Under the pieces are notes generated by a model. The model did no database searches and had not been told where the DNA came from. It was given only the letters and a program-made list of their open reading frames with translations. Positions 891 to 24,341 of a DNA stretch of 24,813 nt are shown in pieces; positions within the stretch are counted from its first letter, which is position 1, and every line of letters begins with the position of its first letter. Location of the stretch: positions 1 through 24,813 of IMG/VR virus record IMGVR_UViG_3300031565_000345. The stretch is one strand, 5' to 3'. A program made the position numbers and the translations under genes. Source of the DNA: a virus.

Positions 891-905
891 AAGGGGGTGA
901 TATAA

Positions 906-1223: not shown

Positions 1224-1235
1224 ATTAGGAATCTT

Positions 1236-1245
1236 AAACCTTCTA
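1236..1245 (+). promoter_or_regulatory. Recurrent leader box AAACCTTCTA, copy 1
   Basis: Exact copy of the box, ending 12 bases before the epimerase ATG and continuing into CAGAAAG. It is the copy most complementary to the inverted box at 23465-23483: positions 1233-1251 could pair over 19 nt with one G-U. The box can also pair locally with GAAGGTTT at 1260-1267, which overlaps the start codon. Function unknown. Confidence 0.55.
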
Positions 1246-1257
1246 CAGAAAGAAGAA

Positions 1258-6372: not shown

Positions 6373-6383
6373 GGAGAGAAATT

Positions 6384-6713: not shown

Positions 6714-6743
6714 AATTACTTTGTATAGGGGGTTGATGGGAGT

Positions 6744-7433
6744 ATGAGTATAAATACAACAATAGGAAGAAAATATGATTTTTATAAAGGTTTAATTGTG
6801 CCTAATGGTTGTTATTTTATGGTGCGATTGGATGGTAATTGTTTTTCAAGATTTACTGAGAGATATGAACGACCGTTTGATAAAAGGTTTTATCAAGCAA
6901 TGCTAGAGGGAACTAAAGAACTTATGACTTATATTCCTGATATTTACAAAGCCCACTTTCACTCAGACGAAATCTCCCTTTACTTTGATAAAAATAGTCA
7001 ATGGTTTGATAGAAGGATAGAGAAGATTATTTCTATTACAGCAGGAATTTTATCAGCAAAGTTTTCTCAAGAAGTAAAAGCCCAGGCTCACTTTGACAGT
7101 AGAATTTTAGTCACGCCAACGAAAAGAGATGTAGAGATTTATGAGAAAGATAGAAGGCTTAATGCTTTTAGGGGTTGTGTTAATTCTTATGCTTATTATA
7201 GTTTACGGAAAAAAGGTTTGACTGAAAGACAAGCTACTAAAAAATTATTAGAGTTGAAATCCAAAGAAAGACAAGAATTATTGTTTAAGGAATTTGGGAT
7301 AAATATTGCTAAAGTTCCAAAGTGGCAAAGGGTTGGTTGTTTTTTAGTTTGGGAGGAATATGAGAAAGAAGGATATAACCCGATTAAAAAGATAAAAGTT
7401 AAGGCTATTAGAAGAAGAATAAAAATATTATGA
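6744..7433 (+). CDS. Thg1-like protein (TLP): 3'-5' RNA nucleotidyltransferase
   Basis: A 229-aa protein with clear signatures of the tRNAHis guanylyltransferase superfamily. VRLDGNCFSRFT contains D30-G31, the first metal-binding aspartate. AHFHSDEISLYF contains D75-E76, the second. FDRRIEKIISI, FDSRI, CVNSYAYYSLRKKGLT and a late KVPKWQRVG follow in the family's order. The VNSYAYY segment, in place of the eukaryotic HINN motif, puts it with bacterial/archaeal Thg1-like proteins. Those enzymes add nucleotides to RNA 5' ends in the reverse direction and repair 5'-truncated tRNAs. A basic tail (KKIKVKAIRRRIKIL) could bind RNA. The start follows GGGGGTTGATGGG. The stop overlaps the next glycosyltransferase as ATGA. 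No tRNA gene is seen in the window. Confidence 0.9.
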   Translation: MSINTTIGRKYDFYKGLIVPNGCYFMVRLDGNCFSRFTERYERPFDKRFYQAMLEGTKELMTYIPDIYKAHFHSDEISLYFDKNSQWFDRRIEKIISITAGILSAKFSQEVKAQAHFDSRILVTPTKRDVEIYEKDRRLNAFRGCVNSYAYYSLRKKGLTERQATKKLLELKSKERQELLFKEFGINIAKVPKWQRVGCFLVWEEYEKEGYNPIKKIKVKAIRRRIKIL

Positions 7434-8140
7434 AACCTGATATTTTGTGCTGCCATCCAAGAGACGTAATCTACCCCTTGTTTATGCACCGGATAAACAA
7501 AGACAGGGAACTTTTTAACAGGATTATTGTAGTGATGACCCAAAAGGCAAGGGATGTGGATTACAGTGGTTACCTGCAAACAAATATAAAAAGGGTAACT
7601 TTGGTAAAAGAATATAAAGATGATGGGAGCGATTGGAGAAATGCCGCTATCAGGGAAGGATTAAGATATATCGGCTCAGGCGACATTTTATTTCTCGAAC
7701 AGGATTTCCTATTTAAAAAGGGGTTCTTTGAAAAATTGATAGAGAAAGCCAACGATTATAATGCGGTGGGTTTTGTTGACGGCAACAGGTTTCACCCCGC
7801 TTGCTTGCTGGTTAAAAGGGAAATATTGAGCAAAACCAGCAGGGATTTTAGCGTTGACAGGGATGTTGGCGACCATTTCGTTAAGTTTAGCAGGGAGTTA
7901 ATGGATTTGGAGAACTGGGCAGATTTGAAGTATCTGGATTTACCTGAATGGAAACATCTTGCTGGACTAACCCAGAATTTCAGGATGAATAGCAACTGGT
8001 ATCATCCACGGGAGTTTTTTACTTATTTGGTTTGTTCGGGTGAGATTGACCAGCCCGAAGAATGGGCGGAATTTGCGGTTAAAAAGTTACATCAAGTAGG
8101 TGAGTATCCGCTTGATGAAAAGATTAAAAGTTTTTTTTAG
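7430..8140 (+). CDS. GT-A-like glycosyltransferase with EQD in place of DxD, 236 aa
   Basis: The protein starts MKPDILCCHPRD, with FNRIIVVMTQ as the second strand, then SDWRNAAIREGLRY (residues 67-80) and DILFLEQDFLF (E90-Q91-D92) where DxD would lie. The same DWRN plus EQD arrangement occurs in the protein at 8495, so these two form a subgroup of the five GT-A-like proteins. RFHPACLLVKREIL parallels YIHPSFWFIKRALL in that homologue. It is shorter than the other copies. It is presumably a cytoplasmic glycosyltransferase; the changed motif could mean altered metal use or loss of activity. Confidence 0.62.
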   Translation: MKPDILCCHPRDVIYPLFMHRINKDRELFNRIIVVMTQKARDVDYSGYLQTNIKRVTLVKEYKDDGSDWRNAAIREGLRYIGSGDILFLEQDFLFKKGFFEKLIEKANDYNAVGFVDGNRFHPACLLVKREILSKTSRDFSVDRDVGDHFVKFSRELMDLENWADLKYLDLPEWKHLAGLTQNFRMNSNWYHPREFFTYLVCSGEIDQPEEWAEFAVKKLHQVGEYPLDEKIKSFF

Positions 8141-8153
8141 GGGGTGAAAAGAA

Positions 8154-8498
8154 ATGAGAGCAGGTAATTCATATAGAGGATTTGTTAATGATATTTTTAT
8201 CGAATATTCAATGATTGACTTATGTTGGAAAATATGGATTTTTGAGAGAAAAAATAACGAGAGGTGGATTGTTCATGGTGATAAAAGAACAATTTATAAA
8301 GATGGTGGGAAGTTGCCAGAGCCAACTATTGTGCTTGAAGACCCAACCTCTTTGAATGATTTAGGTAATTGTTTAAACGAGATGGGGTTTGGCAAGAAAC
8401 CAGAAGATACTACTAAGGAAGTTAAAAGATTAGAAAACCACCTAGAAGACATGAAAACGATTGCTTTTAAACAATTAAAAATTAAGGAGAAAAAATGA
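8154..8498 (+). CDS. Hypothetical protein, 114 aa
   Basis: The start is preceded by AGGGGGTGAAAAGAA, a strong ribosome site of the GGGGGTGA type used elsewhere here. I do not recognise the sequence. The first half alternates hydrophobic and aromatic residues (IDLCWKIWIFERKNNERWIVHG), which suggests a small beta-rich domain. The C-terminal ~35 residues (TKEVKRLENHLEDMKTIAFK) form a likely coiled coil. The stop overlaps the next glycosyltransferase start as ATGA. It is one of the AT-rich orphan genes placed between glycosyltransferases. Confidence 0.62.
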   Translation: MRAGNSYRGFVNDIFIEYSMIDLCWKIWIFERKNNERWIVHGDKRTIYKDGGKLPEPTIVLEDPTSLNDLGNCLNEMGFGKKPEDTTKEVKRLENHLEDMKTIAFKQLKIKEKK

Positions 8499-9253
8499 AT
8501 TGCACTCTTATAACTTGCTGGATAAAGCACTGCGATTATCCCTTATATAGAAGATTTTTGAAGAATTACCGACAATTTTTTAATAAGATAGTAATTCTTT
8601 TTTCAGAGCATAATCGTTGGCCTTATTTTGACCATTTTATTCATGGTTCATTGGCTGACCTAGATATAACATTTTTGGACTCAAAAGAACTGGATTGGGG
8701 CAAGGAAGATTGGCGGAATGTGGCTACCAACGAAATGCTTAAATATTCAGATACCGAATGGGTTGTTTCTATTGAGCAGGATTGGTTTAGCAAAGACTGG
8801 AATAAATTATTAAATGCGGTTGAAGAAGCCAGTAAAGATAACGAGTATATCGGCTGGTGGCAGGAGAGTAATAAATACATACATCCAAGTTTCTGGTTTA
8901 TTAAAAGAGCATTGCTTGATAAGACTAGAAAAGATTTTGCCGCTCATGGTAAACATGACCATTTTGGCTGGATTGCCGAGGATGTTAAGAGTCTGGGCGG
9001 CAAGACTAAAACCACTCAAGAGATGGGGTTTAAGGACTTTGAGGATTGCTTCCATTTAGGCGGGGTAAATCAAAACTACCTTGAGGGACTTAAACCTGAC
9101 TATGTATTTCACAGGCCGGAGATATTTTCCAGTTATAACTATTGGAGTGTTAAAGCAGACGTTAAACAAGACCCTAGACATCTTGAGTTATGCAAAAAGA
9201 TAGCCGAAAGATTACCAGCGCCGGATGATAAATGGAAGGAGTTTTTTAAGTGA
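8495..9253 (+). CDS. GT-A-like glycosyltransferase with EQD motif, 252 aa
   Basis: Homologue of the protein at 7430. MNCTLITCWIKHCDYPLYRR is the first strand and helix, FNKIVILFSEHN the second, then KEDWRNVATNEMLKYS (DWRN at 72-75) and WVVSIEQDWF (E94-Q95-D96). The protein is rich in tryptophan and histidine, with a later FHLGGVNQNY segment that could line an acceptor site. It overlaps the upstream gene as ATGA, and its own stop overlaps a 24-codon mini-ORF as GTGA. Donor and acceptor are unknown. Confidence 0.65.
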   Translation: MNCTLITCWIKHCDYPLYRRFLKNYRQFFNKIVILFSEHNRWPYFDHFIHGSLADLDITFLDSKELDWGKEDWRNVATNEMLKYSDTEWVVSIEQDWFSKDWNKLLNAVEEASKDNEYIGWWQESNKYIHPSFWFIKRALLDKTRKDFAAHGKHDHFGWIAEDVKSLGGKTKTTQEMGFKDFEDCFHLGGVNQNYLEGLKPDYVFHRPEIFSSYNYWSVKADVKQDPRHLELCKKIAERLPAPDDKWKEFFK

Positions 9254-9324
9254 AAATAACAAATAAAGATTTTGAATTGTATAAAGCAGTTAATATTTTA
9301 ATAAATTATATTTTGAAGAAGTGA
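9250..9324 (+). CDS. Putative 24-residue coupled mini-ORF
   Basis: The GTG at 9250 overlaps the upstream stop (GTGA), and its own stop overlaps the next GTG at 9321 (GTGA). The ORF therefore fills exactly the gap between two glycosyltransferase genes. It encodes an N-terminal MKITNKDFELYK followed by a hydrophobic stretch (AVNILINYIL) and two lysines. AAGGAG lies ~11 bases upstream. It could be a real micropeptide, perhaps membrane-associated, or a translational relay carrying ribosomes across the gap. It could also be the remnant of a deleted orphan ORF of the kind found between the other glycosyltransferases. Confidence 0.4.
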   Translation: MKITNKDFELYKAVNILINYILKK

Positions 9325-10367
9325 AAATTTTAGCAGACTTTCATCACGACAGCCTATGGTGGGCATTACACCTGCTTTTTGAAAAGCGGTTAGGCTGGGA
9401 GCTTTACCGGCCTTATGGCGTGGAATGGTTTGACCAGGAATATTTTAAATTGTATGGGCATTTTGCCATGAAAGAACCTTACCGCTTTTTGGCTAAATTG
9501 TATTTAAAAGACATTGTTTTTACTCAAGATGGCGAGAACGGCTATGGTTTGGAAACAAGAATGGGTTGCATTGACTATCCCAAGTTTAAATTAGTTACCC
9601 TTAAAAAAGCTAAAGAAATGGACTTTGACATAATAATTTGCACCATCAACGAGAACGAAAAGTATTTTTACAAGTTCGCCAAAGAGTTTTGTCCGAAAGC
9701 GAAGCTGATAAGGATTACCGGCAATATGAATGATAAGGTTGACCACGAGCTTTATCCTAACCTGATGGCTTCTGATATATCCTCTTACAAAATGTATCAA
9801 GGAGAACACAAGGTTTTATTCAGGCAGGAGTTTGACTTGAACCTGTTTAAGTATTCACCGCCGACCAATACCCATAATTTATACAGCTTTTTGAATGGAC
9901 TTAGGGCAGAGGAAACCGAACCAGGGGTTTTTGGCACCTGGTTTAAGCTTTTGCATTTACTGCCTGAGTTTAAATTCAGGAGTTATGGCGGCAAGTGCGA
10001 GAACGGCCGGATTTTTGGCAAAAGGAAGTTGATTGAGAGAATGTCGGAAGCCTCTTTTTTATACCATGTGAAAAGGATTGACGGCTACGGGCATACTATC
10101 CACAATGCTTTTGCTTTGGGAAGGCCAGTTATTACTTGTTTTGAGTATTACAGAGACAAAATTGCCGAGCCTCTTTTGGTTGATGGCGAAACCGCTATTT
10201 TTACTGATGGCCGGAGCAGCCGGCAGATAGCAGAAATTGTTAGAAGCAAGGCTAACATAGAGGAATTGACAAGGATGAGTGAGAATTGCCGGAAGAAGTT
10301 TGAGGAGAATGTCAAGTTTGATTATGAATTTATGCGGATACAAAAGTTTTTGGAGGAGTTGAGGTGA
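9321..10367 (+). CDS. GT-B-like glycosyltransferase, 348 aa
   Basis: The N-terminal MKILADFHHDSLWWALHLLF and the C-terminal segment GYGHTIHNAFALGRPVIT (about residues 255-272), followed by DGETAIF, match the donor-binding end of GT-B enzymes of the GT4 or CgeB-like type. There, a G-x-x-x-x-E/N-A-hh-x-G-x-P-V loop contacts the nucleotide sugar. The last ~60 residues are helical (EELTRMSENCRKKFEE) as in GT4 C-termini. It is a tandem paralogue of the next gene. The start is a GTG in a GTGA overlap with the mini-ORF; the stop overlaps the next gene in the same way. Confidence 0.72.
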   Translation: MKILADFHHDSLWWALHLLFEKRLGWELYRPYGVEWFDQEYFKLYGHFAMKEPYRFLAKLYLKDIVFTQDGENGYGLETRMGCIDYPKFKLVTLKKAKEMDFDIIICTINENEKYFYKFAKEFCPKAKLIRITGNMNDKVDHELYPNLMASDISSYKMYQGEHKVLFRQEFDLNLFKYSPPTNTHNLYSFLNGLRAEETEPGVFGTWFKLLHLLPEFKFRSYGGKCENGRIFGKRKLIERMSEASFLYHVKRIDGYGHTIHNAFALGRPVITCFEYYRDKIAEPLLVDGETAIFTDGRSSRQIAEIVRSKANIEELTRMSENCRKKFEENVKFDYEFMRIQKFLEELR

Positions 10368-11374
10368 AAGTATTAGCCGATATGCACCACCAGCAGCTTT
10401 TTCATAGCCTAGAGCTTTTGTTTGAGAAAAGGCTGGGCTGGGAGCTTTACACCATGAAAGGGCTTGAGTGGTTTAACGAAGGCTTTTGGAAGGGAGCGGA
10501 AGCCTATGCGAATAATGTTGGAACAGTCGGCCAGTATCTAGGTTTGAGGGGTAAAACACCGGACAGCAACGGCGTTTGCGTGGTTGACGGCACTAAGGGA
10601 TTAACACTTGAGGGATTTAAAACAATGCCTGTAGATATTGTGATTGCCTCGATACCGGCCCATGTTAAGTCTTTTAATGACTTGATAAAAAAATACAAGC
10701 CGCAAGCTAAGCTGATTTATCAAGTCGGCAACCATTTCGGCTCGATTGATTTCAGTTTGGTTAAGAACCTGATGTCCAGCACCATGCCCGAACAAGTGCC
10801 GAGCAATGTCAATGCGGTTTTCTACCACCAGGAGTTTTCCTTAGATGTTTTTAAATACGAACCGCCTCAAGAAAGCAAGGCAATAAGGAGTTTTGTACAC
10901 ACATTGTCAATTGCTGGACATTTTCAAGCCGATTGGCAGGATTTCTTGTCATTGGAAAAAGCTCTGCCTGAATTGAAGTTTGAGGCTTATGGGGCTGGCT
11001 GTCGGGATGGCTGCATTGGCGGAGAAGGAGAGATTGCAAGGTTAATAAGAGAGAGTTTGTTTGGCTTTCATTTAAAGAACATGGCAGACGGCTTCGGCCA
11101 TACCATCCATAACTGGTTTGCGTGCGGACGGCCGGTAATTGTTCGCAAAAGCCAGTATCAAGGGAAACTAGCTGGACAGCTGATGATAGACGGCTTAACT
11201 TGCATTGACTTGGATAAAGGAAGCCTAGAAAGCAATGTCGAAAGGATAAGAAAAGCAAGCCAGCCAGAGGAACATAACAAGATGTGCCAACAGGCTTTTG
11301 ATAAATTTAAACGGGTTTGCGATTTTGACAAAGAGTTTTTAAAAATTAAAACTTTTTTAGAGAAGCTAGGATAG
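10364..11374 (+). CDS. GT-B-like glycosyltransferase, tandem paralogue, 336 aa
   Basis: It begins MKVLADMHHQQLFHSLELLF and shares FEKRLGWELY with the upstream copy at the same position, showing a tandem duplication. The C-terminal DGFGHTIHNWFACGRPVIV (from residue 242) is the same donor-binding loop, followed by IDGLTCIDLD. The two copies have diverged widely outside these blocks, so they probably use different donors or acceptors and are not a recent duplication. The GTG start overlaps the preceding stop (GTGA). It is the last gene of the glycan locus before the packaging genes. Confidence 0.72.
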   Translation: MKVLADMHHQQLFHSLELLFEKRLGWELYTMKGLEWFNEGFWKGAEAYANNVGTVGQYLGLRGKTPDSNGVCVVDGTKGLTLEGFKTMPVDIVIASIPAHVKSFNDLIKKYKPQAKLIYQVGNHFGSIDFSLVKNLMSSTMPEQVPSNVNAVFYHQEFSLDVFKYEPPQESKAIRSFVHTLSIAGHFQADWQDFLSLEKALPELKFEAYGAGCRDGCIGGEGEIARLIRESLFGFHLKNMADGFGHTIHNWFACGRPVIVRKSQYQGKLAGQLMIDGLTCIDLDKGSLESNVERIRKASQPEEHNKMCQQAFDKFKRVCDFDKEFLKIKTFLEKLG

Positions 11375-11719: not shown

Positions 11720-12124
11720 ATGACGGAAATAACTGACTTAGAAAAATTACCAAAAGAGAAACAAAAAGTCGTGGCTAAAGTCCTGTATAAAATGGGATGG
11801 GCTTCTAAAAAAATAGAAGAATGGCTTGGTATTTCGGATACAACAATTTGGCGGGCTTCAGAATTACCAACTCCAGAAGAGCTGAAACAATTTGAAATAG
11901 ATTTCCAAGTGGCAGTAAAAGGAATAAAGCAGGAAGGGATTGCGAAGGTTTTAAAACGGATATTGGAAATAATCCCAAAAGAAAAAAAATTAGACCAATT
12001 AGTGAAAGCAGGAGAATATTTGGAGGGGACTAAAACACCCTTAGTAGCCCAACAATTCAACATAGACGAAGTTAAAGTTTCCAAGGAGGAGTATGACAGG
12101 ATTTTCGAGGGGATTGAGGATTGA
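11720..12124 (+). CDS. Candidate small terminase subunit (HTH protein), 134 aa
   Basis: It lies directly upstream of, and overlaps, the large terminase gene, the usual place of terS. Residues 28-46 (ASKKIEEWLGISDTTIWR) look like a helix-turn-helix; the rest is mainly helical, as expected for an oligomerising small terminase. I chose ATG 11720 because GAGGG stands 4 bases upstream. A longer frame from TTG 11672 would run through the stem-loop and starts with implausible sequence. The role would be recognition of the packaging site and loading of the large subunit. The family assignment rests on position and HTH, not on a diagnostic motif. Confidence 0.62.
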   Translation: MTEITDLEKLPKEKQKVVAKVLYKMGWASKKIEEWLGISDTTIWRASELPTPEELKQFEIDFQVAVKGIKQEGIAKVLKRILEIIPKEKKLDQLVKAGEYLEGTKTPLVAQQFNIDEVKVSKEEYDRIFEGIED

Positions 12125-14699
12125 CAATAATCCCAAACTAGCGAAGGTAGTGAAACTGGTTTCTGATAATCCGGTAGAACTTACCAACCGCTTTTTATAT
12201 ACTTTCGACCCAAAAAGAGAACCTTACCATTTGCCTTTTAGATTGTTCGATTTTCAAGAAAAATTGGTGGGGAATATTAAAGACGCTATTGAGAATGGTT
12301 ATGATTTATTTATTGAGAAATGCAGGGAAGTAGGAGCAAGTTATGTAACTTTGGCAACCCTCTTATGGTTTTGGCGTTTTATTCCAGGCTCAAACTTTCT
12401 TTTAGGTTCAAGAAAAGAGCAGTTTGTTGACAATAGAGGCGTGAGTCTTCGCAAAGACCTTGAAGTTTCGAATAAGGAGGAGTCTTTGTTCGGCAAGCTT
12501 CAATATATGTTAGACCACTTAAATCCTCTTTTATTGCCTAAAGGTTTTAATGTCAAAAGGCATTTTACCACCATGTCTTTGAAAAACCCCCAAAACGGCA
12601 ATGTAATATCAGGCGAGTCAAGCAACCCTAATTTTTCAAGGGGCGCAAGATACAAGGCTATTCTATTAGACGAGTTTGCTTTCTGGGAAAATGATTGCCT
12701 AAGAAAAGATACAGAAGTTTTAACTGGACTTGGATGGAAATTAGTTAAAGACTGTACAAAAAAAGATTTAGTTTATTCAATGGATATAGATACTGGCAAA
12801 GCTAAATTAATGCCAATCACTAAATTACATAAGGTATATGCTGAAAAATTATATGAGTTTAAAAACAAAGCTATTGATATTTCTTGTACTGCTAACCATA
12901 AATTGTTGATTAAGAAAAGGTATTTTCCAAAAAACACTAGAAAATTTAAAAATAAGAATAAGGATAAAGGAAAGTATCAACAAAGCAATGGAAAAATGTA
13001 TTTTAGGCGGGCTGATGAAGTATATACCCAAAAACATGACTTTATTCCATTGGTTTCAAATTATGTTGATGGAGAATCTCCAGAGAAGATTTATGGTTTT
13101 AAAGCCAAAGATTTCCTAGAGTTTTTAGGCTGGTATATATCAGAAGGGTGGGGAAGAAATAAACCGCGTAATAGGAGAATCAGTATTTCTCAAACCAAAA
13201 GTAAAAATCGTCAGAAGATAGAAGATTTGTTAAAAAGAATGAATTTGCCCATTGTTTATAATAGTCATGCTTATAATTTAAGCAAAGGCTATTTACCTGA
13301 AAAAATGTTTGATGAATTGATTTCTCTTGGTAAGGCTCATCAAAAACATATTCCAAGAAAGTATCTTAACTTATCAAAAGACCTACTCAAGACTCTTTTT
13401 AATTCTTTAATTTCTGGTGATGGGTGTATTACTGAAAGAAAAAATAGGACAAATAAAATGATGTATGCTACAACTTCAAAACAGTTAGCTGATGATTTTC
13501 AGGAATTGACTCAAAAAGTAGGATTGAAAGCTTCAATATCCCAACAAAGCTATGATAATGGAAAATGGCGGAAGTTATACAGGTTAAATATTGGATTTAA
13601 ACAGCATTCCCAAGTAGCCTGTCTTGATAAAAAAATTGTTCCCTATAATGATTTTACTTATTGTGTAACTACTCCATATCATAGCTTATATGTCAGAAGA
13701 AATGGTCGGGCTAGCTGGTGTGGCAATACATCAGCTTGGGGAGCGACAGCTGATACCACCGCTTGCAGGATTGTTTTAACAACGCCAGGTTCAAGACCGA
13801 GTAAGGCAAAAAGGCTAAGGTTCGGCAAGGATAACGAAAAGATAAAAGTTGTTACCTTAACTTACAATTTAGACCCTAGGAAAACAAAAAAGTGGCTGGC
13901 ACGAGAGAAAAACAGGCGGTCGGCAGAAGATTTTGCAAGAGAGATAATGATAAACTGGGAAACCTCGGTGGCTGGCAGGGTTTATAATGAAATTGAGCAA
14001 GCGGAGGTAGGTAGTTTTCCTTATGATTGGCATTGGCCTTTGTATGTTGTCTGGGACTTTGGCTTGGATGGGACAGCTTTGCAATGGTGGCAGACCAACA
14101 TGGTTAATGGCAAGCCGAGATTAGTTGAGGCTTTTGAGAACAAAGACAAACCGATTGAGTGGTTCTTGCCTTTTTTTCCCAAACAGGATATTGACTCTAA
14201 TTTTTCTTATTCCGATGACGAATTGGAATTGATAAGGAAAGTTAAGGAGTTTAAGATTGCCATTCACTATGGCGACCCTGATGTTTCAAAAAGGTCATTG
14301 ATTACCGGCACTTCGACACGGCAGACTTTGCAGGATAAAGGCATTTATGTTCAGACGAATACTGAGTCTAATGATTTTGTTTCAAGAAGGGAAAAGACAA
14401 AAGTGTTGCTGCAACAGGGAATAGAAGTTAATCAAACAAGAGGAACTGATTATTTTATGGATTGTGTCAAAGAAGCCCGCTATCCTCAAAGGCAGGAAAC
14501 ATCGCAAGTAACCACGCCAGTGAATTTGCCAATTCACGACTGGACTTCTCATAATAGAACAGCTTTGGAATATTTTGCGGTTAATTACGAAGGCAAGCCA
14601 GAACCCAACCCGATTACCCAATCAACGCCAGAAGAAAGAAGGAGAAACCCGAATGAGAATATTATCCCTGACGAGGGAGGAGTAGCAGATTTGTTTTAA
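12093..14699 (+). CDS. Large terminase subunit (TerL) containing an intein, 868 aa precursor
   Basis: The ATPase/nuclease that packages phage DNA. An atypical Walker A lies at residues 75-83 (EKCREVGAS), and Walker B is KAILLDEFAFW with D193-E194. The C-terminal RuvC-like nuclease shows YVVWDFG (D655), HYGDPD (D728) and PIHDWTSH (D816) in the usual order. Residues 202-545 are an intein. Removing them leaves 524 aa, a normal TerL length, with extein junction WEND/TSAWG. The ATG at 12093 overlaps the small terminase gene by 32 bases and is only 3 bases from GGAGG; TTG 12114 is an alternative start. Confidence 0.93.
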   Translation: MTGFSRGLRIDNNPKLAKVVKLVSDNPVELTNRFLYTFDPKREPYHLPFRLFDFQEKLVGNIKDAIENGYDLFIEKCREVGASYVTLATLLWFWRFIPGSNFLLGSRKEQFVDNRGVSLRKDLEVSNKEESLFGKLQYMLDHLNPLLLPKGFNVKRHFTTMSLKNPQNGNVISGESSNPNFSRGARYKAILLDEFAFWENDCLRKDTEVLTGLGWKLVKDCTKKDLVYSMDIDTGKAKLMPITKLHKVYAEKLYEFKNKAIDISCTANHKLLIKKRYFPKNTRKFKNKNKDKGKYQQSNGKMYFRRADEVYTQKHDFIPLVSNYVDGESPEKIYGFKAKDFLEFLGWYISEGWGRNKPRNRRISISQTKSKNRQKIEDLLKRMNLPIVYNSHAYNLSKGYLPEKMFDELISLGKAHQKHIPRKYLNLSKDLLKTLFNSLISGDGCITERKNRTNKMMYATTSKQLADDFQELTQKVGLKASISQQSYDNGKWRKLYRLNIGFKQHSQVACLDKKIVPYNDFTYCVTTPYHSLYVRRNGRASWCGNTSAWGATADTTACRIVLTTPGSRPSKAKRLRFGKDNEKIKVVTLTYNLDPRKTKKWLAREKNRRSAEDFAREIMINWETSVAGRVYNEIEQAEVGSFPYDWHWPLYVVWDFGLDGTALQWWQTNMVNGKPRLVEAFENKDKPIEWFLPFFPKQDIDSNFSYSDDELELIRKVKEFKIAIHYGDPDVSKRSLITGTSTRQTLQDKGIYVQTNTESNDFVSRREKTKVLLQQGIEVNQTRGTDYFMDCVKEARYPQRQETSQVTTPVNLPIHDWTSHNRTALEYFAVNYEGKPEPNPITQSTPEERRRNPNENIIPDEGGVADLF
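12696..13727 (+). mobile_element. Intein with LAGLIDADG homing endonuclease domain in TerL, 344 aa
   Basis: The intein starts with a cysteine in CLRKDTEVLTGLGW (block A). Block B is SCTANHKLL with T65 and H68 (intein numbering). The two dodecapeptides are FLEFLGWYISEGWG (140-153) and LLKTLFNSLISGDG (230-243), each keeping an acidic residue. Block F is YCVTTPYHSLYVRR. It ends ASWCGN before a +1 threonine. The penultimate residue is glycine instead of the usual histidine, a known but less common variant. The insertion site is a few residues after Walker B, a conserved hot spot. The DNA is more AT-rich than the flanking exteins, which fits later acquisition. Confidence 0.92.
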
Positions 14700-15073: not shown

Positions 15074-15286
15074 ATGGAAAGTGTAATAAGCGAGCATAAC
15101 TTTTTAGAATACCTGAAAAAGAACTATCCTTACCTTTGGGACTTTGAGGTGGAAATAAGGAAGGTGGTTGACGAGAGTGGGTTTGGCGATGCTTCAGCAA
15201 GCGTTATTGTTAGGAACAAAAAGGTGTTTTCCTGTGATGTTTCCCATTGGGTTAAAAAGTTATATGAGGAGAAAAAACAAGTTTGA
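15074..15286 (+). CDS. Hypothetical protein, 70 aa
   Basis: The ATG at 15074 lies 1 base after the upstream stop. The longer frame from 14975 runs through the zinc-finger gene in another frame and is rejected. There is no strong ribosome site, so coupling to the upstream gene is likely. The protein is a mixture of short strands and helices (FLEYLKKNYPYLWDFEVEIRK; SASVIVRNKKVFSC) and I do not recognise it. Its stop codon is part of the -35 element of the promoter at 15283. Confidence 0.6.
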   Translation: MESVISEHNFLEYLKKNYPYLWDFEVEIRKVVDESGFGDASASVIVRNKKVFSCDVSHWVKKLYEEKKQV

Positions 15287-15311
15287 CAAACCTTTAACTT
15301 AGTGTTATAAC
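15283..15311 (+). promoter_or_regulatory. Sigma70-type promoter, module A
   Basis: TTGACA (15283-15288), a 17-base spacer, then TATAAC (15306-15311) with an upstream TG giving an extended -10. This is close to consensus. The 10 bases AGTGTTATAA (15301-15310) are identical in module B at 22071-22080. The predicted start is near 15318. Confidence 0.78.
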
Positions 15312-15326
15312 TTTTATTAGTAAAGC

Positions 15327-15345
15327 TCAAAGGAATATATCCGAG
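15327..15345 (+). repeat. 19-nt repeated transcribed element, copy A
   Basis: TCAAAGGAATATATCCGAG is identical at 22096-22114. It lies between promoter and terminator in both modules, about 10-15 bases after the predicted transcription start. In copy A its last five bases form the base of the terminator stem; in copy B only the final base is used. Its conservation therefore is not explained by the hairpin alone. Confidence 0.75.
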
Positions 15346-15367
15346 GACTTAGGTTCTCGGTTTTTTT
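15341..15367 (+). terminator. Intrinsic terminator, module A
   Basis: CCGAGGAC, loop TTAG, GTTCTCGG forms an 8-bp stem with one G-U, followed by seven T. It ends five bases before the next start codon (15373) and only ~50 bases after the predicted start of the promoter at 15283. Confidence 0.85.
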
Positions 15368-15372
15368 GTTAT

Positions 15373-15603
15373 ATGGCAAAAAACACGCTTGAAGAAATCA
15401 AAAAAAAGATAATTACTTCTACCCAGCAAGCTGAAAAGAAATCGGGCTTAAAAATAACCAGACAAGACATTCTTGATGTTTTGGAAATTCACAATGACCC
15501 GAAAAAGAAAAAAGAAAATGTGGAGAAGTTTTTGGACTCGCTTGACGGCATGACCGAAGAACTTAAAAACAAGGTCTTAAATGATTTGGAGAGCTATGGT
15601 TGA
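15373..15603 (+). CDS. Hypothetical helical protein, 76 aa
   Basis: A lysine- and glutamate-rich, predicted all-helical protein (TLEEIKKKIITSTQQAEKK; DPKKKKENVEKFLDSLDG). I do not recognise a family. The start codon follows the terminator T tract after only five bases, and no Shine-Dalgarno is apparent between them. Its translation would depend on transcription reading through the terminator. The stop overlaps the next gene by 8 bases. Confidence 0.62.
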   Translation: MAKNTLEEIKKKIITSTQQAEKKSGLKITRQDILDVLEIHNDPKKKKENVEKFLDSLDGMTEELKNKVLNDLESYG

Positions 15604-15916
15604 GTTTATTATCTTGGCTTTATTGGTAATAGGTTTTGCAGTTTTCGCTTACATTTTCTATACCAAACAAAACAAGCTGACGGAAACATTGGTTAAGAAG
15701 CTAAACGACCAGGCCGAGAAAGCAACTGAGATGATGATGGCCGGAAGTTTGCAGGAATGGCAAAGGATTAAGGAAGGCAGAAAGCCACAGCCAAACAGAA
15801 TTAAAAGCGACCCTAACCTTTTGGAATTAACCGAAGAAAACAGAATCCCTTGGGATGACATTACTGGCGTTAAGATTGACGAAGGGCCGAAAACAAAAGT
15901 TAAAATTTACCATTAG
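15596..15916 (+). CDS. Single-pass membrane protein, 106 aa
   Basis: I chose ATG 15596, after GGAGAGCT, over ATG 15581. From 15596 the protein begins VEFIILALLVIGFAVFAYIF, a clean transmembrane helix at residues 2-21, followed by a charged cytoplasmic tail (KKLNDQAEKATEMMMAG; GRKPQPNRIKSDP). The topology is N-terminal anchor, C-terminal tail. Position between packaging genes and portal is unusual for a lysis gene. It could be a holin-like or membrane-adaptor protein, but no diagnostic motif supports that. Confidence 0.68.
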   Translation: MVEFIILALLVIGFAVFAYIFYTKQNKLTETLVKKLNDQAEKATEMMMAGSLQEWQRIKEGRKPQPNRIKSDPNLLELTEENRIPWDDITGVKIDEGPKTKVKIYH

Positions 15917-16039: not shown

Positions 16040-18217
16040 GTGCCGAAGAAAAAGAAAGAAGAAAATAAAAAGCCGGAAGTTATTAAATTAACAACGCTTA
16101 AAAGCGACAAGGAAAAGAAGGCTTTAAAGCGAGTAGCAAACCAGTTTTTAAAATCAAAAGCGGACAGTTTGTTTAAGTCGGCTTTTGAAAGCAGGGAACG
16201 CTATGATTGGGAATGGCTGACAAGGGATTTGTTCAGGCGGGGCTATCATTTCTCCAATTACGACCAGCCTAACAAGACTGTTCTTCTAGCCACCAGGAGA
16301 GGCGTTAAATTTCCGGTAAACCTCTTGTGGTCTCAAATGAGAGGGGTTAAAAACATGGTAACAAACTTCAAACCCAAATGGGAAGTCTTGCCAACCGGCA
16401 AGTCTGAGGAGTCTTTAGCCAACGCCCGCTATTCGGGCAAACTCCTTGATTACTATTACCAGCACTTGGGTTTAAGGAAAATGCTTAAAGAAACAGTTAT
16501 GCAGGGGTTGATGTTCTCCGTTGGCGGGCCTTGGCAGATAGGTTATGACAAAGAGACAGGCGAGGCTTATATTTGGCTTATTGACACTTACGACTTTTAT
16601 GTTGACCCTTTGGCTCCATCCTTAAAAGATGCCCAGTTTTGCGTTAAGGCAGTCAGGAAGAATTTAGACGAGGTAACTACCAATCCCCACTACAAATTTT
16701 ATGAGAGTATTCCCAAAACAGGAGAACCAGTGCTGGCGGTTTCTCCGGCCAAGCAGTTTCTAATCCAGGCATTAAAGCATAAGACTGGCAATACCAAAGA
16801 AGAAGAGGAAGAAGGGGCGATACTTAAAGAGGCCTGGATTAAAACAAGGGTTTCTGACGACAACATTGACGAGATAAAAGAGGAATTGGCTCAAAATGAG
16901 GAGGACACAAAGAATTTAAAGAATGGCGAGGTTTTAATGAGAATTGTCCATTTTACCGACTTTCTCCAAGACCCGCTTTTGGTTCAGCTTAAAAGAAGAA
17001 ATGATTTTCCATTCGCTTTGTACCAAGGGGATATTAACCCCTGCGAGCTTTACGGAGAGAGCTGGGCCAAACACATTATTCCTATCAACAGGGTTTTAAA
17101 CGCTTTGGAGTCCTCAGTTTTTATGTTCAATTACATGGTGGCAGTAGGTCGGGTAATCATTGATAAAAATTCAGGGGTGAGATTGGTTGCAAACCAGCAT
17201 GGCAGTTTCATTGAGAAAAATAGAGGAGCTGACGTTAAAATTCCCCAGCCGCCTTCAGCACCGCCAAGTTTCCAGCAGCAGATTGCAAACTGCTGGAAAT
17301 ACATTGAGGATTTGGGCGGTTTGCATGAGCCTTCCTATGGCAAGTTGCCTTCCAACATATCGGGAATTGCCTTAGCCGAGTTAAAACAAGCGGATGCTAG
17401 TAATTCCAGTGATTTGACCGATAACCTGGAAGAATTTTTGGTTGAGGTAGGGCAAAAGACCTTAAAAGTGGTTTCCCAGAATTATGATGTCCCTAAACTG
17501 ATTAAAGATTTGGGAATGGGCGGGGATGTCAAGCATTTTGCGGTTGTCGGCGAAAGCGGGGCTGGCAGGAGAAGCAACAAAAGGAAAGTTAAGATTGGGC
17601 CGGATAGTTTTGATTTGGCGGTTATCGGTTCTGACAATGAGATAAGGGTAACTATCGGCTCATGGCTGGCTTATACCAAGACCGCAAGGCAGGAGAGATT
17701 GGAAAGTTTGTTTGAAAAAGGCGCTATTGACCAGAAAACTTTACTGCAGCACTGCGAGTTTGCCGACGTGGATAATATTATCGAGAAAACCAGGCAGGAG
17801 GAGATTTTAAAGCAATTCAGGAAAAGCAACGCTCAAGGAGCTGAAGTTTCAGACGAGGAGATAGCAAGGCAGGAAAACGCCATGATGCTTCAGGGAAACG
17901 ATAAAGTAGAGCCTTTAGTAACCGATAACCACATTGTCCATAACATTGTCCATCAGGAGGCTTTGGGTGCGGGCGGAAACCCCATTATTGAGAAACACAT
18001 GAGCTTGCATGAAGCACTGGCCGAAAAACACCCTGAAGGGGAACAAGCACCAGCACAAACGCCAATAGCGACGCCAGCGCCAACGCCAGGGGTGGCAGGA
18101 ATGACCACGCCGCCGCCAGGAGCACCGGCCGGAGGCACGCCAGGCTCACCGGAAGAAGCGGCTTTAATGGAAAGTTTAGCAGGATTGCAAGGAGGTCAAG
18201 GTGGCCAAATTCGATAA
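16040..18217 (+). CDS. Portal protein, 725 aa
   Basis: Size, position after terminase and sequence character fit a phage portal of the large P22-like type. The N-terminal region is basic. Helical segments follow (RERYDWEWLTRDLFRRGYHF), then VNLLWSQMRGVKNMVTNFKP and a strand-rich wing with YIWLIDTYDFYVDP, a typical portal stretch. Long C-terminal helices rich in Q/E/K follow. The last ~60 residues before the end are low-complexity Pro/Ala/Gly (TPAPTPGVAGM, PPPGAPAGG), probably disordered. The portal dodecamer forms the DNA channel at the capsid vertex. The start must be GTG 16040, because TGA precedes it in frame; no Shine-Dalgarno is visible. An ATG at 16036 in another frame opens only a 10-codon ORF. 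Confidence 0.85.
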   Translation: MPKKKKEENKKPEVIKLTTLKSDKEKKALKRVANQFLKSKADSLFKSAFESRERYDWEWLTRDLFRRGYHFSNYDQPNKTVLLATRRGVKFPVNLLWSQMRGVKNMVTNFKPKWEVLPTGKSEESLANARYSGKLLDYYYQHLGLRKMLKETVMQGLMFSVGGPWQIGYDKETGEAYIWLIDTYDFYVDPLAPSLKDAQFCVKAVRKNLDEVTTNPHYKFYESIPKTGEPVLAVSPAKQFLIQALKHKTGNTKEEEEEGAILKEAWIKTRVSDDNIDEIKEELAQNEEDTKNLKNGEVLMRIVHFTDFLQDPLLVQLKRRNDFPFALYQGDINPCELYGESWAKHIIPINRVLNALESSVFMFNYMVAVGRVIIDKNSGVRLVANQHGSFIEKNRGADVKIPQPPSAPPSFQQQIANCWKYIEDLGGLHEPSYGKLPSNISGIALAELKQADASNSSDLTDNLEEFLVEVGQKTLKVVSQNYDVPKLIKDLGMGGDVKHFAVVGESGAGRRSNKRKVKIGPDSFDLAVIGSDNEIRVTIGSWLAYTKTARQERLESLFEKGAIDQKTLLQHCEFADVDNIIEKTRQEEILKQFRKSNAQGAEVSDEEIARQENAMMLQGNDKVEPLVTDNHIVHNIVHQEALGAGGNPIIEKHMSLHEALAEKHPEGEQAPAQTPIATPAPTPGVAGMTTPPPGAPAGGTPGSPEEAALMESLAGLQGGQGGQIR

Positions 18218-19034
18218 AGCGAAACTGCTAGTTTTAAGAAGCAACATTGATACTTATTTAAAAAAACTTGCCGAGCAGGAAAAAGACAGTTACCGCAAGT
18301 TAGCTTCAGGTTATGAGCAGGTTGAGCGTTCTCTTAACCGGATTATCGAGATTTTGTTAAACGAAACAAAAACAGATAAGACAATGGCCGCTTTAAAACT
18401 TTTGAAAAAAGAATTAGGGGAAGCTATCCAAGTAGCCAAACCCGACATGAGCGAAGTTGTGAAAGCGGTTGATAATTTAAGCAAGTCTTTATTAACCCAA
18501 GATAGAAAAGAGGGTGAAGTAGTTAAAAGGCTGGAAGCGATAGAAAAGGTTTTAACTAAAAATACTCCTAAAAAAGAAGTAAAAGCGGTTGACAGGACTG
18601 ACGAAGTAATAAAGGCAATAAAAAGCATTAAATTAAAAGTTCCCGAGTTTGAGTTTCCAAGCGAGGTGAATGTTAATCCTGGTTCTCATTGGCCGCCCCA
18701 GAAAGTCCCTAATCCGGTAACTCATATAAACATAAATTCTTTAAAGGGGAATGTCCACCAGACTACTACTACTGTTACGACAACTTTAACTCCTCTGCCT
18801 AGTTATGGCGTTCTTGATGACAGGAGAGCGATTATTTTCTACAATAACAGTTCTAGTATAACTGTATATATTGGCGGTTCTACTGTAACCGCTTCTACCG
18901 GAACACCGATAGAACCTAAAAGTTTTTCTCCTTCTTTTGACTCAGGCCCTTTGCAGAAATGGTATGGGATAACTTCGTCGGGAACGGCAGATGTGAGGTG
19001 TTTAGAGCTTCCAGACGAAGCTTCGGGCAGATAG
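18201..19034 (+). CDS. Coiled-coil structural protein with beta C-terminus, 277 aa
   Basis: GTG start after GGAGGTCAAG (18191-18200), overlapping the portal end by 17 bases. Residues 1-~125 are long charged helices with heptads (LAEQEKDSYRKLASGYEQVE; VVKRLEAIEKVLTK). A Thr-rich linker (TTTTVTTTLTPLPS) follows. The C-terminal domain has IIFYNNSSSITVYIGGS and WYGITSSGTADVRCLELP, a pattern seen in virion accessory proteins with a small beta-sandwich. It is likely a virion component such as a head fibre, connector or decoration protein; the exact role is not shown. Confidence 0.65.
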   Translation: MAKFDKAKLLVLRSNIDTYLKKLAEQEKDSYRKLASGYEQVERSLNRIIEILLNETKTDKTMAALKLLKKELGEAIQVAKPDMSEVVKAVDNLSKSLLTQDRKEGEVVKRLEAIEKVLTKNTPKKEVKAVDRTDEVIKAIKSIKLKVPEFEFPSEVNVNPGSHWPPQKVPNPVTHININSLKGNVHQTTTTVTTTLTPLPSYGVLDDRRAIIFYNNSSSITVYIGGSTVTASTGTPIEPKSFSPSFDSGPLQKWYGITSSGTADVRCLELPDEASGR

Positions 19035-19045
19035 CCTATAGTATT

Positions 19046-19780
19046 ATGAACTGGAAGGATACTAGTAAACATTGGTCTAAAACAAATCAGAGAAACATTG
19101 TTTTAAGTAAAATAAAACATACTCTTTGGAAAAAAGGGGAACATACTAGCCCTAAGACTGAATTTAAAAAAGGATTGACCCCTTGGAACAAGGGTAAAAA
19201 AGGGGTTATGCCAGTCCCTTGGAACAAAGGGAAAAAGTGTTTTCAGACATCAAAAAAGGCCAAAGAAAATAAACATGGTAACTATTTTAAAGAAGGGGAA
19301 AAACCAGTTTCCCATAAAAAAGGATGTAAGTGTTTTCGATGTACAGGAATTACTTGGAATAAAGGAAAAAGAGGAGTTTATATAACCTCCGAAGAGACTA
19401 AAAGAAAAATGAGTCTTGGGAAAAAGGGTAGGAAACCAAAAAACTTTGATGATTTAATGAAAAAATTACACAGTAAAGAACCAACTAATATTGAGATAAA
19501 AGTATATAAAGAACTTAAAAAAAGAGGTTTTTTGTTTGAAAAACAGAAGATAATAAATGGAAAATTTATAGTTGATGCTTACATTCCAAAATTAAATTTA
19601 GTAATAGAGGCAGATGGTGATTATTGGCATTCACTATTAAAAGCAAAAGAAAGAGATAAAAGAAAAAATGATTACTTACAAGAACATGGATTTAATTTAT
19701 TAAGACTTACAGAAACAGAAATAAATAATGATTTGTTCAAGGAGAAATTACCATGCCACGAATTGGCCATCCAGCTTTAG
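19046..19780 (+). CDS. Free-standing homing endonuclease, PD-(D/E)XK/Vsr-like with NUMOD3-type repeats, 244 aa
   Basis: The N-terminal half contains three repeats of the P/T-W-N-K-G-K type (TPWNKGKKG, VPWNKGKKC, ITWNKGKRG), the DNA-binding NUMOD3-like motif of homing endonucleases, plus a CKCFRC metal knuckle. The C-terminal half has FIVDAYIPKLNLVIEADGDYWHS, then KRKNDYLQEHGFNLLRL, the core of a DUF559/Vsr-like (EDxHD-type) nuclease with D, E and H in place. I chose ATG 19046 because the protein-like sequence starts there. The DNA is AT-rich compared with its neighbours. Its 3' end overlaps the next gene by 28 bases and contains that gene's ribosome site. Confidence 0.85.
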   Translation: MNWKDTSKHWSKTNQRNIVLSKIKHTLWKKGEHTSPKTEFKKGLTPWNKGKKGVMPVPWNKGKKCFQTSKKAKENKHGNYFKEGEKPVSHKKGCKCFRCTGITWNKGKRGVYITSEETKRKMSLGKKGRKPKNFDDLMKKLHSKEPTNIEIKVYKELKKRGFLFEKQKIINGKFIVDAYIPKLNLVIEADGDYWHSLLKAKERDKRKNDYLQEHGFNLLRLTETEINNDLFKEKLPCHELAIQL

Positions 19781-22052: not shown

Positions 22053-22081
22053 TTGACATAATTCATCCAGAGTGTTATAAA
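22053..22081 (+). promoter_or_regulatory. Sigma70-type promoter, module B
   Basis: TTGACA (22053-22058), a 17-base spacer, TATAAA (22076-22081) with an upstream TG. It has the same architecture as module A and an identical AGTGTTATAA core. The predicted start is near 22088. Confidence 0.8.
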
Positions 22082-22095
22082 TTAAATTAGTTCAA

Positions 22096-22114
22096 TCAAA
22101 GGAATATATCCGAG
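22096..22114 (+). repeat. 19-nt repeated transcribed element, copy B
   Basis: Identical to 15327-15345 (TCAAAGGAATATATCCGAG). Here CCGA lies outside the terminator stem, which argues that the sequence itself is selected. Confidence 0.75.
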
Positions 22115-22140
22115 ATTGCCGAGAGGCAATCTTTTTTTTT
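22114..22140 (+). terminator. Intrinsic terminator, module B
   Basis: GATTGCC, loop GAGA, GGCAATC forms a perfect 7-bp stem followed by nine T. The stem sequence differs entirely from module A although the upstream 19 nt are identical. Confidence 0.9.
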
Positions 22141-22178: not shown

Positions 22179-22832
22179 ATGTTATTTAGAAAAGGGCAGA
22201 CACCTTGGAATAAGGGAATTAATAATAAACCACAGTGTACGGATTGTGGAGTTAAGTTAAAAAGTTATGGCTCGATAAGGTGTAAGAGTTGTGCTGCTAA
22301 GAAAAGAGATTTAACGAATTTTTTGAAAGTAGCACGCATAAATAGAATAGGAAAAGTTCCCTGGAATAAGGGTTTAACAACACCAGGTAAAGTGAAAGAA
22401 AAACAGAGTGAGGCACATAAGAAAAATCCTACGAAATATTGGTTAGGAAAGAAAAGGTTAGATATGGTTGGGAATGAATTTGGATTTAAAAGGGGAAACA
22501 TGAAGGGTGAAAAACATTGGAATTGGAAAGGTGGAGTAGGTCGTTTTAGAGATAGGGTTGTTCAGACACTTGAATGGCAAGAATGGAGAAAAAAAGTTTT
22601 TGAAAGGGATGATTATACTTGTCAAATCTGTGGTGAAAGGGGATGTTGTTTACATCCTCATCACAAAGTAAAATCATTTGCCAAAATTTTACAAAATAAC
22701 AATGTAACTACTTTAGGAGAGGCTAGAGAATGTAAAGAACTTTGGAATTTAGATAATGGCGAAACCCTTTGTGTCAAATGTCATCGACAAACTGATACGT
22801 GGGGAGGTAGAGTTATAAAATTTTTACAATAG
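22179..22832 (+). CDS. HNH homing endonuclease with NUMOD3-type motifs, 217 aa
   Basis: The N-terminal half has TPWNKGINN and VPWNKGLTT NUMOD3-like motifs and a CTDC...CKSC zinc knuckle. The C-terminal half is an HNH domain: WRKKVFERDDYTCQICGERG, then HPHHKVKSF (catalytic histidines), LWNLDNGETLCVKCHRQT (Asn and final His). This is the standard layout of phage-borne HNH homing endonucleases. The ATG lacks a Shine-Dalgarno and follows the recurrent box. The element appears to have inserted between that box and the structural gene at 22850. It is AT-rich compared with its neighbours. Confidence 0.9.
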   Translation: MLFRKGQTPWNKGINNKPQCTDCGVKLKSYGSIRCKSCAAKKRDLTNFLKVARINRIGKVPWNKGLTTPGKVKEKQSEAHKKNPTKYWLGKKRLDMVGNEFGFKRGNMKGEKHWNWKGGVGRFRDRVVQTLEWQEWRKKVFERDDYTCQICGERGCCLHPHHKVKSFAKILQNNNVTTLGEARECKELWNLDNGETLCVKCHRQTDTWGGRVIKFLQ

Positions 22833-22849
22833 AAGGGGGGTGAATTACC

Positions 22850-23194
22850 ACGCGTTATACATATATAGCTTCAGATAACAGCACAAGTGATGCAACCGCT
22901 TTTAATGCTGCCGGTAATGATTGTTTTGTCAAAAAGATTATTTTCGGCAACCCGACTGATGCGGATGTTTTACATCTTTACAACAAAGTATCAGCTACAG
23001 GTCATGCTAGTGGAATGGGAAGCGTTAGCACCAATTCTCTTGCTTTAAAGTTTGTCCAACCGACTCATGCGGCTGGTTGTGATTGGGTTTATGAATTGAA
23101 TTTGTCTGGTGAATTTAATCCTGGCCTACAGTTAGACGGCGGATGCGTTCACACAAACGGAGATAATACAACTATTATCTGGGACGACAAATAA
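22850..23194 (+). CDS. Small virion-type protein, 114 aa, apparently starting at ACG
   Basis: An open frame with clear protein character (RYTYIASDNSTSDATAFNAA; CFVKKIIFGNPTDADVLHLY; TTIIWDDK at the end). There is no ATG, GTG or TTG near its 5' end. TGA at 22841 closes the frame upstream, and the first in-frame ATG is 55 codons in. AGAAGGGGGGTGA (22831-22843) lies six bases before ACG 22850, the same spacing as for the starts at 8154, 21350 and 24404. ACG is therefore the best start; ATT 22844 touches the ribosome site. Composition and position suggest a virion protein. An ATG-to-ACG change or sequencing error is possible. Confidence 0.68.
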   Translation, partial: TRYTYIASDNSTSDATAFNAAGNDCFVKKIIFGNPTDADVLHLYNKVSATGHASGMGSVSTNSLALKFVQPTHAAGCDWVYELNLSGEFNPGLQLDGGCVHTNGDNTTIIWDDK

Positions 23195-23418: not shown

Positions 23419-23496
23419 CAAACCTTCTACTCCTTCAGAAGGTTTTCTGGAGGGAATTAAACTTTTTCTGTAGAAGGTTTGAGTTTAATTCTCTCG
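23419..23496 (+). promoter_or_regulatory. Bistable leader RNA containing box copy 4 and an inverted box
   Basis: The 199 bases between 23399 and 23597 contain no gene. Box AAACCTTCTA (23420-23429) can pair with AGAAGGTTT (23437-23445) or, over 12 bp, with GTAGAAGGTTTG (23470-23481). The second pairing frees TCCTTCAGAA to fold with TTCTGGAGGG (23431-23454). A third stem, GAGGGAATTAAAC (23450-23462) with GTTTAATTCTCTC (23483-23495), 13 bp with one G-U, fits only the first arrangement or a pseudoknot. An intrinsic terminator follows, as expected for an attenuator or riboregulator. Confidence 0.6.
23465..23483 (-). repeat. Inverted copy of the recurrent leader box
   Basis: The minus strand reads CTCAAACCTTCTACAGAAA, matching the full extended consensus of the forward boxes at 1236, 16019, 22157, 23420 and 24370. 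As RNA from the + strand it is complementary to all of them. Confidence 0.65.
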
Positions 23497-23527
23497 AAAA
23501 GGCTTTCTGGAAAGGAAGCCTTTTTTT
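23497..23527 (+). terminator. Intrinsic terminator before the scaffold gene
   Basis: AAAAGGCTT and AAGCCTTTT form a 9-bp stem with loop TCTGGAAAGG, continuing into a run of seven T. It ends the bistable leader. Confidence 0.85.
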
Positions 23528-23539
23528 ATTTATTCGCTT

Positions 23540-23597: not shown

Positions 23598-24341
23598 ATG
23601 CCTGATGAAAAAGGCAAAAACCCTGAGAGCGCAGAGACTCAGGATGACTCGCCAACAAACAAAAAAACGCCCGCAGACGACTCTGATAAGGCCGACAGCA
23701 AAGTCGTTAAAAAGCCAAAGTCAGAAGCAGAAAAAGAGTGGGAAGGTTTGAGAGGTTCTACCCAAGACCGAGTTGTTGAGCTTGTTCGCAGAGCGAAAGA
23801 AGCGGAAACAGCACTTGAGAGAACCAAGTTTCAAACACCCAGCAATTTAACACCATCGGATACTCCAACGCCACCCAAGGCTCCATCGCAAGATGAAGTC
23901 AAGGAAGCGGTTAAGCAGCTCATAAAGCCGCTTAAAGATGAGGGAGTAGTTACCAAAGAAGAGTTAAACGCTCTTCAGAACCGTTGGTATTTGGATTTTG
24001 AGCATAACCGCTTGACTACCAAATTCAATGGTTCGGATGGCCGTCCCAAATACCTTTCGGAAGAAGTCGAGGATTATGCCAGAACTCATGGTTATGGCGG
24101 AAATCTTGAGGCTGCTTACGAACAGTTGTACAAAGACGAGTTGTTGGATTTTGAGATAAAACAAAGAGGTTATCAGAAACGCAAAGAACCTTATACTGAG
24201 AAGCCTGTCGCTTCCGTCAAAATAGGTGAAAAAGTGCTGACTAGAGAAACTCTAAGAGAGCGACTAAGACAGCCTGACGGACCCGATTGGTGGGCAAAGC
24301 ATAAGGACAAGATAGACCTTGCCAAACTTTCTCCTCGTTAA
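23598..24341 (+). CDS. Candidate capsid scaffolding protein, 247 aa
   Basis: ATG after AATAGGAGGCGGAA. It lies directly upstream of the major capsid gene, the usual place of a scaffold. The N-terminal ~60 residues are highly charged and disordered (KNPESAETQDDSPTNKKTPA). They are followed by helices (QDRVVELVRRAKEAETALER; EVKEAVKQLIKPLKDEGVV) and a basic, helical C-terminus (TRETLRERLRQPDGPDWWAK), which in scaffolds contacts the coat protein. No protease motif is visible. Identification is from position and composition. Confidence 0.7.
   Translation: MPDEKGKNPESAETQDDSPTNKKTPADDSDKADSKVVKKPKSEAEKEWEGLRGSTQDRVVELVRRAKEAETALERTKFQTPSNLTPSDTPTPPKAPSQDEVKEAVKQLIKPLKDEGVVTKEELNALQNRWYLDFEHNRLTTKFNGSDGRPKYLSEEVEDYARTHGYGGNLEAAYEQLYKDELLDFEIKQRGYQKRKEPYTEKPVASVKIGEKVLTRETLRERLRQPDGPDWWAKHKDKIDLAKLSPR

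Follow-up and report, generated by a model that had tools for sequence, protein, structure and literature searches.

Virion genes in a group of uncultured phages are headed by a compact module in which a promoter, an 11-nt hairpin and a predicted intrinsic terminator follow each other within about 85 nt. We identified two such modules in a virus record of 24,813 bases (the whole stretch analyzed here, referred to as the window) and a total of 23 across approximately 13 related phage lineages. The arms of the hairpin are swapped pair for pair between modules, and such promoter-hairpin-terminator heads in front of virion genes point to an undescribed late-gene switch. Outside a few model groups, we know of almost no late-gene switch in phages.

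Two modules with the same design in the window

Modules A (15283-15367) and B (22053-22140) share the parts that the original prediction had assigned to them, namely TTGACA, a 17-nt spacer, an extended -10 (AGTGTTATAA, at 22072-22081 in module B) and an identical 19-mer, while their terminator stems differ, as had also been claimed (Table 1). The predicted separation of about 6.77 kb agrees with the 6,769 nt between the two 19-mer copies. The 19-mer (TCAAAGGAATATATCCGAG) has exactly two copies in the window; the window has no further match at up to three mismatches, and 100 shuffles gave none. A scan of the window for promoters with TTGACA, 17 nt and an extended -10 returned only the two modules, and so did a joint promoter and terminator scan, for which Markov-shuffled windows averaged 0.05 per 24.8 kb. 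The placement of the 19-mer outside the terminator hairpin proved wrong, as its last bases (CCGAG in module A and AG in module B) open the 5' arm of the terminator.

Two interpretations of the repeated sequence were abandoned. Exact matches to the 19-mer in viral contigs were near-identical relatives and one coding coincidence (L002), and the 19-mer was dropped as a conserved feature. AAAGGAATATAT was rejected as a ribosome-binding site, since no ATG comes after it in modules A and B. At more than 100 other viral loci with a promoter and GGRATATAT, most were similar to a ribosome-binding site with an ATG next, and none had a terminator. A tRNA search returned nothing, and no window match to Rfam exceeded the gathering score; the best sub-threshold match for module A was the greA leader (23.2 bits vs 60).

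Table 1. Positions of module parts and neighboring genes in the window
Feature	Position	Strand	Remarks
sm1, small conserved gene	15074..15286	+	ends on the -35 box of module A; kept in relatives just upstream of module A; candidate factor by position
Module A promoter	15283..15311	+	-35 TTGACA 15283-15288, 17 nt, -10 TATAAC 15306-15311, extended -10 (TG)
19-mer, copy A	15327..15345	+	
Module A 11-nt hairpin	15332..15342	+	GGA-AUAUA-UCC; 2-nt overlap with terminator arm
Module A predicted intrinsic terminator	15341..15367	+	8-bp stem, U7; stem-loop 15341-15360, T-run 15361-15367
First gene behind module A	15373..15603	+	76 aa; ATG 5 nt past U-tract; heads portal operon
Small conserved gene of portal operon	15596..15916	+	N-terminal membrane segment
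Portal protein gene	16040..18217	+	PHROG portal family, E 1.1e-24
Module B promoter	22053..22081	+	-35 TTGACA 22053-22058, 17-nt spacer, -10 TATAAA 22076-22081, extended -10 (TG)
19-mer, copy B	22096..22114	+	
Module B 11-nt hairpin	22101..22111	+	GGA-AUAUA-UCC; 1 nt 5' of terminator arm
Module B predicted intrinsic terminator	22112..22140	+	GNRA-type loop GAGA, U-tract; stem-loop about 22112-22133, T-run to 22140
HNH endonuclease gene	22179..22832	+	between module B and decoration gene; PHROG HNH, E 9e-14
Decoration-type protein open frame	22843..23194	+	preceded by module B in relatives; homologue directly behind module B in G003, L175, L176 and L178
Scaffold-like gene	23598..24341	+	upstream of major capsid gene (MCP), which is next in relatives L168 and L166

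The conserved element is a covarying 11-nt hairpin

The sequence of the 19-mer is not kept in relatives, and the conserved element is instead an 11-nt hairpin within it (GGA-AUAUA-UCC in the window), which has a stem of 3 bp and a loop of 5 nt. The modules were collected by promoter and terminator, or by position and terminator, with the hairpin disregarded; the one exception is L201, which was found with the hairpin. A hairpin of this shape ending between -6 and +2 nt from the terminator arm was present in all 22 aligned modules, compared with 4.3 expected from shuffled leaders (2000 trials, maximum 11 of 22). Loops of 3, 4, 6, 7 and 8 nt occurred 8, 4, 1, 5 and 2 times, with 4.2-4.5 expected.

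Nine different stems were observed (GGA/UCC, GUG/CAC, GAU/AUC, UAG/CUA, GUA/UAC, AGA/UCU, GAG/CUC, GGG/CCC and GCG/CGC), all of them perfectly paired. All 66 cells of the ungapped alignment pair, with 24 two-sided changes and no one-sided change, counts that include related phages and hence are not all independent events. The covariation score was 0.990, vs 0.277 (SD 0.055) for shuffled and at most 0.24 for slid alignments. Several of the stem changes fall between two modules of one phage (G003, G009 and G010), and the two hairpins of G003 are GGA-AUAUA-UCC and GUG-GUAAA-CAC. Of the "specific recognition element" in the original prediction, what stands is a specific, selected feature between promoter and terminator; this feature is the covarying hairpin and not the 19-mer, and it lies against the terminator or partly within it.

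The loop reads AUAUA in the window and [AU][UG]AAC in the wider clade, and loops are more varied in the window's own clade than in the wider one. Both modules of G008 have the loop AGAAC, as do both of G012, and [AU]UAAC is kept in G009 and G010. In L178, a close relative of the window, the module B hairpin is GGA-ACAUA-UCC. A guessed GUG-AUUA-CAU hairpin in L019 was discarded given that the 5-nt loop held in every module, and pairing of the loop with downstream sequence in a pseudoknot, assessed by eye, was not consistent across modules.

A scan for hairpin plus terminator that ignored promoters recovered the modules, all of which lie behind promoters, together with a handful of other matches; the corresponding null was 4 matches in 254 kb of shuffled sequence. 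Unrelated viral DNA (1.23 Mb) contained 43 hairpin-terminator pairs, of which only one had a promoter-like sequence, and that one was weak. A covariance model of the hairpin was also built and carries too little information for searching.

Modules precede late operons in related phages

The proposed check for further modules in relatives was carried out through portal relatives, capsid-protein searches and whole contigs, and it produced the 23 modules from about 13 lineages. All relatives are metagenomic contigs, several of them fragmentary, and the same-sample pairs L021 and L175, and L019 and L176, are assumed to be one phage each. Contigs nearly identical to the window carry the same modules, and portal relatives at 59-67% identity have a module at the same site, between the terminase block and the portal. 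G003 has a second module immediately ahead of the genes for decoration protein, scaffold and capsid, which is the site of module B. There are two conserved sites, one before the portal operon (sm2/TM/portal) and one before the decoration/scaffold/capsid operon (deco/scaffold/MCP). The sole module off these sites is a third copy in G010, located before a glucosaminidase endolysin gene. A clear module was not seen in L018, a relative contig starting at this region.

As every module precedes portal, decoration/scaffold/capsid or, once, endolysin genes, the module belongs to the late genes. The circuit is indeed repeated, but the "genome-wide control circuit" of the original prediction is too strong a term for two (once three) copies per phage that are restricted to late operons. 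Relatives of the portal or capsid protein were not found in genome contigs searched for a host, and no phage isolate carrying the portal was found.

The HNH endonuclease gene of the window has no counterpart in L178, whose downstream genes are about 99% identical. Relative to L178, it takes the place of about 70 nt behind module B and has acquired the ATG of the decoration gene. Between the decoration and scaffold genes of the window (23430-23530), a structured leader comes with a second intrinsic terminator that is also strong (stem 23496-23525). Neither a promoter nor a mini-hairpin accompanies this terminator, which may separately attenuate the scaffold and capsid genes. A different terminator is found at the decoration-scaffold gap in G003, L175, L203, L245 and L217.

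Other features of the window and its relatives

A DUF559/NUMOD3 gene, like the HNH gene of homing-endonuclease type, lies behind the portal operon (window 18959-19780). Sequence reading suggests intein-like insertions in the terminase large subunit (window 12093-14699; L020 819-3329) and in the portal of L021 (3266-6451). The terminase large subunit is one frame in the window and appears as two open frames, with the gene for the zinc-finger protein discussed below between them, in L021 (244-2455), L231, L236 and L238. The capsid gene is broken near its start in L175 (3828-5205), L176 (2693-4106) and L178 (about 2120-3083); L175 and L176 each have an endonuclease-like frame immediately ahead of the remaining capsid sequence, perhaps an intron.

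Judging from the translations, the first part of the window (1-11374) has a series of glycosyltransferase-like genes, accompanied by genes for a sugar epimerase and a methyltransferase, in a quantity that is unusual for a phage; G010 has a similar series. The early genes of G008-G010 and G001 include families of TET-associated glycosyltransferases, amidoligases and class-II glutamine amidotransferases, which may point to modified DNA bases. A long serine-proline repeat (SPSISPSVSPS) occurs at L166 11883-14962 and L020 12013-15156, in proteins whose genes lie upstream of module B in G003.

Proposed mechanism

The best reading of the module is promoter-proximal attenuation of a known type, here with a recognition hairpin. 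A promoter, a short leader and an intrinsic terminator ahead of the first codon, all kept in relatives, are the layout of an intrinsic attenuator. With somewhat better than even confidence, we regard the module as a late-operon attenuator that is opened when a factor recognizes the hairpin. A host-type RNA polymerase would start at the strong extended -10 promoter and transcribe a leader of about 20 nt, then the hairpin and then the abutting or overlapping terminator, where by default it would stop after about 40-50 nt. If a putative trans-acting factor of phage or host origin recognizes the loop of the emerging hairpin, the terminator presumably cannot fold or act, and the polymerase would read on into the portal, capsid or lysis genes. 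Terminator activity and its relief, the reading of the loop by a factor, and the action of the hairpin as RNA are what we infer from the sequence. More tentatively, and with considerably less confidence, we suggest that the modules could contain antitermination signals of a new class, in which the pentaloop of an 11-nt stem-loop is read, as RNA or in the non-template strand, by a factor from an undescribed family; such signals would gate all late operons of this uncultured phage group.

The hairpin lies at a nearly fixed distance from the terminator but 7-31 nt after the -10; it keeps its spacing to the terminator and not to the promoter, which ties it to termination. It is never closer than 7 nt to the -10, so the whole hairpin is within the transcript, as expected if it must be transcribed. 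Portal-type and endolysin modules have their first codon 0-17 nt past the U-tract, which leaves no room for a promoter behind the terminator, and transcription must therefore cross the terminator.

Candidates for the factor were sought among the phage genes. No NusG-like protein or paralogue was found in ten phage records of the group, several of which are fragments, and 65 early proteins yielded no antiterminator family in Pfam and none among the PHROG matches listed. N-like, Q-like and ANTAR families were likewise absent from the listed matches of the early proteins scanned. The sm1 protein and a zinc-finger protein, both conserved just upstream of module A, are candidate factors by position only. 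The sm1 protein has no Pfam family; its model is helix-helix-strand-strand (pLDDT 80), and comparison with the PDB gave no convincing match, the best being GnsA (Foldseek E 0.33, Z 3.2). The model of the zinc-finger protein is poor (pTM 0.35).

Alternative explanations

The hairpin could also do without a factor, as a cis competitor or pause signal that fixes the read-through ratio and tunes late gene dosage. We consider this rather unlikely, even though no factor gene was found among the early proteins and phage records searched, and in 14 of the 23 modules the hairpin and the terminator arm have bases in common, an overlap that would give kinetic competition without a protein. The other nine modules have no overlap, and simple mutual exclusion can therefore not be the whole mechanism. 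As free RNA, the hairpin has hardly any stability (-2.4 to +1.7 kcal/mol), which implies that something must hold it, and at about 0 kcal/mol it could hardly compete unaided with terminator stems of -7 to -18 kcal/mol. Moreover, a conserved loop on free arms is what recognition predicts.

Recognition of the element as a non-template DNA hairpin is a less probable possibility still. It would be in line with the lack of G-U pairs in the mini-hairpins (0 of 69, vs 18 of 195 in the adjoining terminator stems; p 0.005), with the size of 11 nt, which fits a bubble of 10-11 nt, and with the base run GG...CC followed by G in the window and G003, which resembles a consensus pause. In the ops element, only C3:G8 is thought to form in the bubble, and the outer pair was judged impossible in a bubble of 10-11 nt (PMC5995543), a geometry with which a 3-bp stem over 11 nt fits badly. 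Furthermore, the ten phage records, several of them fragments, yielded no NusG paralogue, and the minimum spacing of 7 nt after the -10 agrees with a hairpin that is transcribed.

It is very unlikely that the module yields a terminated small RNA of 40-50 nt that acts in trans, with the downstream genes read by other means. A strong promoter with an immediate terminator would give a short, abundant RNA, and the two window copies have 19 nt in common; the two modules of other phages, however, have little common sequence, as the hairpins of G003 illustrate, and the position of the first codon in portal-type modules means that every transcript of those genes must cross the terminator. Least probable, and in our view close to dismissible, is a Q-type protein bound at the promoter DNA that would load onto a polymerase in a sigma-dependent pause, with the element as pause signal: although a promoter with a close terminator before late genes is the lambda pR' layout, and AGTG 5' of the -10 is conserved in the window's clade, a promoter-loaded pause should hold its spacing to the -10, the covarying stem is needless for a -10-like pause sequence, and no Q-like family was found among the matches listed.

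The module is compact and sits at fixed places in many uncultured phages, and its clean covariation lends itself to tests in a standard reporter. Should the hairpin be read by a dedicated factor, that factor would be a novel antiterminator whose target is very small. The combination of hairpin and terminator can also serve to flag late operons in further contigs of the group.

Comparison with known systems

In lambda N/nut boxB, the stem is longer, the loop is GNRA-like and there is a boxA partner. The boxB hairpin resembles the element described here as a phage hairpin with a 5-nt loop near a promoter and with a loop that is more constant than the stem. The modules differ in their 3-bp stem, their ANAAC-type loop and their leaders, which are too short for a boxA; the loop length agrees with the boxB GNRNA loop, but AGAAC, AUAAC, UUAAC and AUAUA do not fit its sequence.

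Lambda Q at pR'-tR' and AlpA act at a late promoter with an immediate terminator that has to be bypassed (PMC6606751, PMC9371919), and this arrangement is shared by the modules. Recognition in those systems occurs at promoter DNA, whereas the conserved element here travels with the terminator; a recognition element at a set position in the promoter or initial transcribed region, as in lambda Q control, has no counterpart in the modules.

In ANTAR/EutV regulation, a hairpin overlaps the 5' part of the terminator, and its stem is needed while the stem sequence is free (PMC8934654), an arrangement that the modules resemble. ANTAR/EutV targets consist of two hexaloops with A1 and G4; the modules have a single pentaloop and no conserved G4, and no ANTAR protein family was present among the early genes scanned in the phages.

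RfaH reads ops, a very small hairpin in which pairing is required and base identity is not (PMC5995543), and the modules similarly keep pairing while their bases vary. In ops, the hairpin forms in non-template DNA and has a loop of 4 nt and a single functional pair, in contrast to 3 bp and a 5-nt loop here, and the ops consensus GGCGGTAGnnTn is absent from all 23 modules.

In the dfn/mln leader of Bacillus velezensis, recognition by LoaP of a small leader RNA hairpin ahead of an intrinsic terminator results in read-through (PMC12691694). A leader hairpin before an intrinsic terminator and the first gene is common to both systems, with read-through being presumed for the phages. The dfn hairpin has a UNCG tetraloop and lies in a leader of 417 nt; the phage hairpins have 3 bp and a 5-nt loop, abut the terminator and lie in leaders of about 45 nt, and a UNCG-type tetraloop does not occur in the modules. 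LoaP is a NusG paralogue, a type of protein not encountered among the ten phage records, several of them fragments. The modules are set apart from LoaP/dfn, ANTAR, N/boxB and Q because each of these systems has one testable defining feature that the modules do not share.
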